A DNA stretch of 64,000 nt, taken from NCBI RefSeq assembly GCF_001693735.1, contig NZ_LWDV01000010.1:132365-196364 (forward strand), read 5' to 3'. This DNA is from Orenia metallireducens (GTDB lineage: Bacteria > Bacillota > Halanaerobiia > Halobacteroidales > Halobacteroidaceae). Numbering within the stretch: position 1 is the first letter of the stretch; every line of letters begins with the position of its first letter. The position numbers and the translations under genes were made by a program. Shown here one piece after another: positions 5,047-31,485 of the stretch. The notes under the pieces were generated by a model. It ran no database searches. It had not been told where the DNA came from and was given only the letters and a program-made list of their open reading frames with translations.

Positions 5047-7521
5047 CTACTTTACAACAATATTAACCAATCTCTTAGGAACAACAATTTCTTTAATGAT
5101 TGTCTTATCTTCAAGGTACTCTTGTACCTTCTCTTGCTCCTTAACGATTCCTTTTAGCTCTTCAGGGTCGATATCAGCAGCAACTTCAACCTTATCCCTT
5201 ACCTTACCATTAACTTGGACAACGATTGTGATTTCATCCTTCTTAGTAGCCTCCTCATCATATTCTGGCCAGCTCTGTAGATGGACACTCTCCTTATATC
5301 CTAGCTCTGACCATAACTCTTCAGTCATATGTGGTGCAAAGGGAGCTAATAATAAGATAATAGTCTCTACAACCTCTCTATATAATGAATAATTTATCTC
5401 TTCACTATCTACTTCATTTAAATACTTATAAGTTGCATTAACTAGCTCCATAATTGAACTGATAGCAGTATTGAACTGTTGACGCTCTGCAATATCTACA
5501 GTTACACTCTTAATTGCCACATGTAACTGGCGGTGTAACTCTTTTTCTAACTTATTGTCTAATGAATATTCGTCAGTAGCTACCTTAAGATCATTACTAT
5601 GCTCAGATACCAATCTCCAAACACGATTTAAGAAGCGTTCAGCACCCTCAACTCCCTCGTCACTCCAGTCTAAATCTCTCTCTGGTGGAGCAGCAAATAG
5701 GATAAATAATCTAGCTACATCAGCACCATAGTTCTCTAAAATCTCCATAGGATCAACGATATTCCCTTTAGATTTAGACATCTTAGCACCATCTAATAAG
5801 ACCATACCTTGAGTCAATAAGTTATCAAAAGGCTCTTTATAGTCAACTAACCCTTGGTCACTCATAAATTTCATGAAGAATCTCGCATAAAGCAAGTGTA
5901 AGATTGCATGTTCAATTCCACCAATATACTGGTCTACATTCATCCAGTAATTTGCTCTATCTTTATCAACGATCTTATCAGATAATTCTGGGCAAGTATA
6001 TCTTATATAATACCAAGAAGAATCAACGAAAGTATCCATTGTATCTACTTCTCGCTTAGCAGCTTTACTACACTCTGGACAAGTAGTATTAACAAAGTCT
6101 TCTACATTGGCTAACGGTGATTGACCTTGCCCTGTGAACTCTACATTAGTAGGTAATTCTACTGGTAAATCCTCTGCTGGTACTGGCACAACTCCACAAT
6201 CATCACAATAAACCATTGGAATAGGAGTCCCCCAGTATCTTTGACGAGAGATTAACCAATCTCTTAAACGATAATTAACCTCCTTCTTACCAATACCCTC
6301 TTCTTCTAGATAAGCAACAATCTCAGCAAAGGCTTTTTCAAAGTTCAATCCATTTAAGAAGTCAGAGTTAACAATCTTACCCTTCTCTGTATAAGCTTCA
6401 GTCAAATCTCTTCCATTTAATTCTTCTTCTCCTTGAACTACAACCTTAATCTCTAAATCATACTTCTTAGCAAATTCAAAGTCACGTTGGTCATGAGCAG
6501 GCACTGCCATAATAGCCCCAGTTCCATATCCCATTAATACATAATTTGCAATCATAACTGGAATCTCTTCATCAGTTAGAGGGTTGATAGCTTTAATTCC
6601 TGTATCTACACCCAATTTCTCAGCATCAGATCCAGTTCTCTCTTCTTCATCTTGCTCCTTCATTTTAGCAATAAAGCTCATAACTTCCTCTTCTTTATCA
6701 GTACCAGTTACTAACTTCTTAACCAATGGATGCTCAGGAGCCAATACCATATATGTAGCACCAAAGATAGTATCAGGCCGAGTAGTAAATACCTCTATCT
6801 CTTCATCACTATCCTTTATCTTGAATTTAATTTGAGCACCTTCACTACGACCAATCCAGTTATTCTGCATCGTCTTAACCCGTTCTGGCCAATTCTTCAA
6901 TAATTTATGGTCATTTAATAGCTCTTCTGCATAATCAGTAATCTTAAAGAACCATTGTTCTAAGTCTTTATCTACTACCTCACTATCACAACGTTCACAC
7001 TCTCCATTAACTACCTGCTCATTAGCAAGTACTGTTTGACAGCTTGGACACCAGTTAACATTTGCCTTCTTCTTATAAGCTAGCCCTTCTTTATATAGCT
7101 CTAAGAACAACCATTGAGTCCATTTATAATAGTCAGGATGGCAAGTAGCTACCTCTCTATCCCAATCATAGCTTAAACCTAACATCTTAAACTGCTTTCT
7201 CATATTAGCAATATTATCCCAAGTCCAACTATTAGGATGAATACCATGCTTAATTGCTGCATTCTCAGCAGGAAGTCCAAAGGAGTCCCAGCCCATTGGA
7301 TGCAATACGTTATACCCTTCCATTCTTTTGTACCGAGCAAAAACATCACCTAAAGAATAATTTCTAACATGCCCCATATGTAAATTACCAGATGGATAAG
7401 GAAACATCTCTAAGACATAATACTTAGGTGCTTTAGTAATTTCACTCTTATATAGTTGAGTCTCTTCCCAATTTTGTTGCCATTTTGGCTCAACATTTTT
7501 GTAATCATATCTTCCTTTCAT
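5047..7521 (-). CDS. leuS: Leucyl-tRNA synthetase
   Basis: This class I synthetase charges tRNA-Leu and edits mischarged products in its CP1 domain. The 824 residues match bacterial LeuRS. The HIGH-type signature is HMGH at residues 48-51. The KMSKS signature is MSKSKGN near residue 580. The editing domain has the threonine-rich TTRPDT segment, and a zinc-type CPSC...CERC module is visible near residue 160. The chosen ATG follows AGGAGG; a TTG one codon earlier is less likely. The gene is preceded by a T-box leader with a leucine-type specifier and followed by a terminator. Confidence 0.98.
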
Positions 7522-7633
7522 CAATTCAACCTCCTGTTTTTTAGTTAATAGCGATTTAATAGTTGATATTTAAAAATATTTATATTATGTACTTGATACT
7601 ATTGACTATACAGTCTGATTTTATATTAATACA

Positions 7634-7938
7634 CAAAAAACCCTCACCCCTAATAAAGATAAGCTCTTTAGTAGGGACGAGAGTTCCTCGCGGTACCACC
7701 CTATTTGGTATATTAAAGATTGGTGGAGATAACCGGGCTCGAACCGGTGACCTCTACACTGCCAGTGTAGCGCTCTCCCAACTGAGCTATATCCCCAAAA
7801 CCATATACATACCCACTTTATAGAACAGGATAACGGTTGTCAACCGTATAGACTACTACTACTTCACCTATATGACTCCGAGGCGAGTTCAGTTTATACC
7901 TACTACTCCTCTTCCATGCCATAAAGCAATATTTAACT
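7634..7938 (-). promoter_or_regulatory. T-box riboswitch of leuS, containing a tRNA gene
   Basis: Reading down the minus strand, a GGAAGAGGAGTAGTA motif opens Stem I. GAACTCGCCTCGGAG follows, with CTC as a plausible leucine specifier. Next come AGTAGTCTATACGG and CCGTTATCC, typical linker blocks of long T-boxes. The conserved antiterminator AGGGTGGTACCGCG is at 7690-7703. The intrinsic terminator is CCCTACTAAAG against CTTTATTAGGGG plus TTTTTT, at 7634-7679. Uncharged tRNA-Leu should favour antitermination and raise leuS expression. A full tRNA-Ala gene (7721-7796) lies between the Stem I part and the antiterminator, which is not the usual architecture. Confidence 0.88.
7721..7796 (-). tRNA. 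tRNA-Ala(GGC), nested in the leuS T-box leader
   Basis: This 76-nt cloverleaf has no mismatched stem: acceptor GGGGATA/TATCTCC, D-stem GCTC/GAGC, anticodon stem CTACA/TGTAG with loop CTGGCAG (anticodon GGC), and T-stem ACCGG/CCGGT with loop TTCGAGC. A73 and an encoded CCA are present, and G3 faces U70, the main alanine identity element. The tRNA reads GCC and GCU codons. No promoter is visible between it and the leader promoter at 7945-7973, so it should be cut out of the leuS leader transcript. Confidence 0.96.
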
Positions 7939-7944
7939 ACAATT

Positions 7945-7973
7945 ATTATAGATTAATCAATAATTTTTGTCAA
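7945..7973 (-). promoter_or_regulatory. Sigma-A promoter of the T-box/tRNA-Ala/leuS unit
   Basis: TTGACA (7968-7973) and TATAAT (7945-7950) are separated by exactly 17 bp on the minus strand, a perfect consensus promoter. The predicted transcript start is near 7938, just before the T-box Stem I sequence. Confidence 0.85.
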
Positions 7974-31378: not shown

Positions 31379-31485
31379 TCTGTGCACCTCCTCTACCTCA
31401 GACTCGCCGATCACTAGGTACTCTTTGAGAGTTTTTCAACCCGTATCGTGCGGTTTTGGCAGTGGCTTATATAAACCACTCACGA
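31379..31485 (-). promoter_or_regulatory. L21 leader RNA
   Basis: Just upstream of rplU the RNA contains GTGAGTGGTTTATATAAGCC, AAACCGCACGATACGGGTT and CTAGTGATCGGCGAGTC blocks with clear local pairing. It resembles the ribosomal-protein L21 leader of low-GC Firmicutes, an autoregulatory element. The family call is from memory of that motif. Confidence 0.65.

Follow-up and report, generated by a model that had tools for sequence, protein, structure and literature searches.

The leuS leader of Orenia metallireducens appears to be a transcriptional, leucine-sensing T-box riboswitch with a functional tRNA-Ala(GGC) gene as an extension of its Stem III, a reading to which we assign a probability of roughly three in four. 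The tRNA lies between the leucine specifier codon CUC and the antiterminator, and the same arrangement is found in many other genomes.

Architecture of the leuS leader

The leader was analysed within a stretch of 64,000 nucleotides (the window); the unit formed by promoter, leader and leuS is on its minus strand and comes after an rsfS-like gene (Table 1). The first-pass annotation, made from the letters of this stretch, had placed a complete tRNA-Ala(GGC) inside the leuS T-box, and ARAGORN, RF00005 and RF00230 all bear this out. The T-box model RF00230 aligns over its full length (model positions 1-219; 86.9 bits, E=1.3e-19) and therefore spans both halves of the leader; a fit to only one half had been named as the finding that would speak against the proposal. 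The alignment confines an insert of 90 nt to the loop of Stem III, which agrees with the proposed location of the tRNA in the loop of a hairpin between Stem I and the antiterminator. The antiterminator motif is also present, but one position away from 7690-7703, where it had been placed, namely at 7689-7702.

The leader, which carries the 90-nt insert and a short Stem I, scores below the curated Rfam gathering cut-off of 93 bits, and a default Rfam scan of the window consequently reports the tRNA and misses the T-box. Of 18 relatives sampled, six have a tRNA-containing leader that scores above this cut-off (93.7-120.9 bits). The discriminator motif of T-boxes (AAGUG, Stem III and the following AA) and the UGGU bulge are both present in the window, and a tRNA-Leu(GAG) with A73 is encoded in the same genome. 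The distal Stem I platform, consisting of the AG bulge and the terminal loop, is absent, since 2 nt replace 53 model positions. Stem I length varies widely between T-boxes and truncated Stem I forms are handled by the T-box database TBDB (PMC7778990); we regard the distal platform as common among T-boxes but not as defining. Stem I is truncated above the specifier loop in the family of the window (7888-7905; also locus L170), and many distant relatives apparently keep a full-length distal Stem I, as judged by eye.

The consensus promoter proposed in the first-pass annotation matches at 12 of 12 positions, and transcription of leader, tRNA and leuS from it as one transcript is the best explanation of the locus. 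A simple terminator scan called no terminator at 7635-7690, where the minimum-energy fold places the hairpin. Three further proposals of the annotation would follow from the anatomy: this terminator should serve both as leuS attenuator and as terminator of the tRNA transcript, RNase P should part the sensor from the antiterminator, and the supply of alanine tRNA should be tied to the leuS promoter. Orthologs of leuS in 12 other genomes of the order share 69-94% identity with the gene in the window.

Two other elements of the window may be mentioned. An ORF of 86 amino acids (7563-7823, plus strand) runs antisense to the tRNA and the T-box; it is of the type of spurious peptide often annotated opposite tRNAs and is probably not a gene. 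A ribosomal protein L21 leader (RF00559, 38.1 bits) is located at 31390-31465 on the minus strand.

Table 1. Features of the leuS leader region in the window
Feature	Position	Strand	Basis
Sigma-70 type promoter, TTGACA-17-TATAAT	7945..7973	-	12/12 consensus; also in sister species
T-box leader (Stem I through antiterminator)	7670..7925	-	RF00230 alignment
Specifier codon CUC (leucine; anticodon GAG)	7885..7887	-	Position in RF00230 alignment
Stem IIA/B pseudoknot element CGGTTGACAACCGTTA	7831..7846	-	RF00230 alignment
RRRNG motif AAGUG, directly 5' of Stem III	7814..7818	-	Sequence; motif per PMC7778990; conserved in relatives
Stem III 5' arm GGUAUGU	7807..7813	-	RF00230 alignment; covariation in relatives
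tRNA-Ala(GGC) with encoded CCA, in Stem III loop	7721..7796	-	ARAGORN; RF00005 66.9 bits
Stem III 3' arm AUAUACC	7707..7713	-	RF00230 alignment; covariation in relatives
Conserved AA directly after Stem III 3' arm	7706-7705	-	RF00230 alignment; relatives
Antiterminator 5' strand AGGGUGGUACCGCG (motif AGGGTGGTACCGCG)	7689..7702	-	RF00230 alignment
T-box bulge UGGU in antiterminator	7698-7695	-	RF00230 alignment
Intrinsic terminator hairpin and T-run (7640-7635)	7635..7690	-	Minimum-energy fold
leuS, leucyl-tRNA synthetase	5047..7521	-	ORF 5047-7524 (TTG start); ATG at 7521

The nested tRNA and its copy number

All 21 cloverleaf pairs of the nested tRNA are standard and the identity pair of alanyl-tRNA synthetase, G3:U70, is present; the minimum-energy fold of the unmodified sequence favours a structure other than the cloverleaf by 2.3 kcal/mol. 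The best reading is that of a working tRNA-Ala gene whose product would read alanine codons. It is the only Ala-GGC copy among the 52 tRNAs found in this genome, a list that is incomplete, as the expected Ala-TGC, Ile, Gln and His are missing from it. A motif search for Ala-GGC in 24 carrier genomes gave one copy in 19, two copies in four Ktedonobacteria and none in one, and within the Halanaerobiales a single copy was found in 12 of 13 genomes. The nested copy is thus usually the sole Ala-GGC gene found in its carriers.

Distribution of the arrangement

We scanned 84,980 species genomes with a pattern that combines a tRNA T-arm and CCA with a T-box antiterminator 5-35 nt further on, and obtained at least 120 matching stretches. 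Among the matches listed, ARAGORN calls a tRNA in 114 (that of the window included), of which 109 are Ala-GGC; the remaining five (Leu, Leu, Ser, Gln, Pro) were set aside as presumed chance matches. This leaves at least 108 further cases besides that of the window, all of them tRNA-Ala(GGC). Since G3:U70 is kept in 109 of 109 nested tRNAs among the matches listed, the tRNA seems to be selected as an alanine tRNA. Likewise, the specifier is CTC in 103 of the 105 listed loci with at least 150 nt upstream (90 by the strict GAA-CTC specifier motif and 13 in relaxed contexts, assigned by eye), which argues for selection on Stem I to sense leucine. Of the remaining two, L109 is without Stem I and L097, labelled Actinomycetota, has the specifier region GAATTTATC instead of CTC, possibly another leucine codon.

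According to the submitter titles, from which the phylum was taken, the 108 loci listed belong to Bacillota (64), Chloroflexota (22), Thermomicrobiota (6), Atribacterota (4), Armatimonadota (3), Coprothermobacterota (2), Actinomycetota (2) and Caldisericota (1); two have no label and two stem from perhaps mislabelled bins (Pseudomonadota and Thermodesulfobacteriota). The arrangement is present in 53 of 63 sampled genomes from the class of a Syntrophomonas genome and in 32 of 400 from the phylum of a Dictyobacter genome, and reversed-pattern controls gave no match in the same 63 and 400 genomes. Wherever the downstream region is readable among the matches listed, leuS is the first or second gene. 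Another ORF comes first in 15 loci (encoding, for instance, an acyl-CoA synthetase, the branched-chain aminotransferase IlvE or a GNAT acetyltransferase); leuS is second in 13 of them, and two stretches end too early. A spread of the module to other operons was therefore rejected, as these 13 of 15 loci rather look like insertions into the operon.

Gains and losses in the Halanaerobiales

The first-pass annotation had pointed to related Halanaerobiales. The nested tRNA is present in six of 13 genomes of this order, and its occurrence across many phyla goes well beyond what had been suggested. The 13 genomes show all possible states: both elements, either of them alone, or neither. The tRNA is nested in the genome of the window (G000) and in G012, G011, G008, G010 and G009; in the last four of these the Stem III loop holds a longer insert (271 nt in G010). 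G006 possesses the T-box without the tRNA, which is located elsewhere in the genome. In G001, G002, G003 and G005, members of a second family, the sensor is lost and promoter, tRNA and a relic terminator are kept before leuS. G004 and G007 have neither T-box nor tRNA but only the relic terminator. As judged from these sequences, the two halves can be lost separately, and the unit of tRNA and terminator can outlive the sensor, as one would predict if tRNA and attenuator remain of use in its absence. Outside this order, locus L109 (Atribacterota) keeps promoter, tRNA-Ala and antiterminator-terminator without Stem I and is a second independent loss of the sensor.

Three relatives (L170 at 1262, L171 at 1153 and 1216, L172 at 1215) have a hairpin spacer of the type GGTGTTAGGTCATCGAGACCGTCACACC, or a variant of it, behind the nested tRNA; the spacer also occurs behind a tRNA-Lys within a cluster of tRNA genes in the genome of the window (G000:C5:116908). 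In L171, the stretch before this hairpin can pair with the CCA end of the tRNA.

The same isoacceptor, hairpin, specifier and operon argue for one origin, and a single event in an ancestral leuS operon probably gave rise to the arrangement. In a quick FastTree phylogeny of LeuS, which has an arbitrary root and long branches, most rows of the Chloroflexota, Thermomicrobiota and Armatimonadota side and most Bacillota rows form distinct groups with support, and each side of the split includes the nested tRNA. This would fit an old single origin, though transfer may have played a part. The arrangement was probably retained since, in most carriers, no tRNA-Ala(GGC) gene other than the nested copy was left.

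Selection on both parts

The two arms of Stem III pair within their own locus in 322 of 450 cells, compared with a mean of 245 and a maximum of 271 when arms are swapped between loci (1000 swaps; loci listed), a strong result that is not to be read as a probability, since the swaps keep the relatedness between loci. Covarying helices are, for instance, GGTAA/TTACC, GACAA/TTGTC, GATAG/CTATC and GATCG/CGATC. The complete succession of RRRNG, helix, helix and AA is found in 73 of the 107 loci listed, versus a mean of 25 and a maximum of 35 after swapping; a simple rule misses RRRNG with anchored Stem III pairing in about one third of the loci, some of which have a longer or shifted Stem III. A longest-helix test without anchors was weak (6.9 versus 6.0 pairs), and the anchored tests were used instead.

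RNase P prefers a U directly before the tRNA. This U at position -1 is present in 88 of the 109 loci listed (81%), as compared to an upstream background of 21%, and in bacterial pre-tRNAs generally it amounts to about 60% (PMC10465520). A leader end of the form pyrimidine-purine-U is strongly enriched before the nested tRNA, and the trailer behind it consists of 73% A+T (loci listed). Both parts, T-box and tRNA, appear from these patterns to be under selection.

Proposed mechanism and alternative explanations

Anatomy, conservation, covariation, copy number and the evolutionary series, all read from sequence, point to the following mechanism. One promoter would give one transcript, and one attenuator would serve leuS and the tRNA. 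Stem I and Stem II would read tRNA-Leu(GAG), and Stem III would still close beside the antiterminator, carrying the tRNA cloverleaf at its tip where a short loop would otherwise be. If tRNA-Leu is charged, the polymerase should stop at the terminator and release a pre-tRNA-Ala with long leader and trailer; if it is uncharged, the polymerase should continue into leuS. In either case, the alanine tRNA would already be transcribed. Since it precedes the attenuator, its supply should track the promoter and not the T-box decision, so that leuS would be under T-box control and the tRNA would not, and promoter strength would set both. RNase P and 3' nucleases would then excise the tRNA and thereby remove the sensor from the leuS mRNA. 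We infer the regulation by leucine, the order and timing of processing and a supply of tRNA that does not depend on what the T-box decides. A further-reaching idea, which we consider rather unlikely, is that the leader ceases to act as a regulator once the tRNA is excised and that this excision shapes the fate of the leuS mRNA, which would link alanine-tRNA production, RNase P and leucine sensing in an ancient composite RNA.

It is even less likely, if still worth considering, that processing acts as part of the switch, in that RNase P cleavage competes with the T-box decision or sets the lifetime of the leuS mRNA. A cut at 7796/7797 would necessarily part the specifier domain from the antiterminator, and endonucleolytic cuts upstream of the terminator are known from the thrS and thrZ leaders of Bacillus subtilis (PMC3997798). 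The enriched leader end would suit this idea too, but tRNA maturation alone would select the same end. Moreover, only about 85 nt separate the end of the tRNA from the T-run, so the polymerase probably decides before RNase P can act.

The nested tRNA might also serve as a ligand or decoy in cis, its ACCA end pairing with the UGGU bulge, so that leuS would be tuned by alanine tRNA or the switch would be biased towards the on state. The complementary ACCA lies about 22 nt upstream of UGGU, A73 occurs together with UGGU in 107 of the 109 loci listed, and the trailer of some relatives within the Halobacteroidaceae can fold into a hairpin that would sequester the CCA. However, UGGU needs no partner in cis, since this genome's tRNA-Leu(GAG) carries A73 as well, and covariation between UGGN and N73 is uninformative on this point because leucine and alanine tRNAs both carry A73. 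In addition, the specifier remains CUC and does not match the GGC anticodon, and UGGA faces A73 in two loci; a search for tRNA-Leu in the genomes with a UGGA bulge gave no clear candidate. We therefore regard this function as very improbable.

We consider it equally improbable that the tRNA has a promoter of its own inside the T-box and that the two units merely overlap. The first-pass annotation had named a separate promoter as a finding against its proposal, and a weak internal match does exist in the window (TTGACA-17-TAAAGT, 7843-7815, 10 of 12 positions). However, both hexamers belong to conserved elements of the T-box (Stem IIA/B and RRRNG), relatives do not retain the second one as judged by eye, and the upstream promoter matches perfectly. 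A separate promoter is not seen in relatives either: the distance between the pseudoknot motif of Stem II and the tRNA is 35 nt or less in 76 of the 90 measurable loci listed. Finally, a chance neighbourhood or an assembly error, which a draft genome of 12 contigs might suggest and which the annotation had also considered, can be dismissed, since a second species of the genus shows the same arrangement in a separate assembly, independent assemblies from many phyla, named isolates included, contain it, and the reversed-pattern control is zero.

Significance and comparison with known systems

Within the open literature searched, we found no description of a tRNA gene inside a T-box, so that any claim of priority is tentative; the main text of the TBDB paper (PMC7778990) does not mention the arrangement. 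We classify it as a T-box variant and not as a new class. If our preferred reading is correct, Stem III of a T-box, which adjoins the aminoacylation-sensing core, can house an entire functional RNA gene, and evolution has kept this form across several phylum labels. Maturation of the tRNA and the decision of the riboswitch would compete on a single molecule, which is testable, and the series of genomes supplies natural deletion mutants of each half. The possession of the only tRNA-Ala(GGC) gene also suggests why such a riboswitch becomes hard to lose. For annotation there is a warning, since calls of T-box and tRNA overlap and one element can drop out.

Like the transcriptional T-boxes of the RF00230 type, for instance those of B. 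subtilis leuS and thrS, the leader has a specifier, Stem II, the IIA/B pseudoknot and the order RRRNG, Stem III, AA. It also shares with them the UGGN antiterminator, the competing terminator and an aminoacyl-tRNA synthetase gene downstream. In contrast to the B. subtilis T-boxes, its Stem III loop contains a complete tRNA gene for another amino acid. Mixed tRNA-mRNA operons are represented by metY-nusA-infB and thrU-tyrU-glyT-thrT-tufB of Escherichia coli; there, too, a tRNA is excised from a transcript that runs on into protein genes, but it stands ahead of these genes and does not belong to the structure of a riboswitch. Two-codon and tandem T-boxes are examples of a T-box architecture elaborated with extra tRNA-related parts. 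Their extra parts sense tRNA, whereas here the extra part is the tRNA itself. The T-box leaders of B. subtilis thrS and thrZ are cut upstream of the terminator by RNase J/Y (PMC3997798), whereas in the leader described here the cuts would be made by RNase P and 3' tRNA processing.
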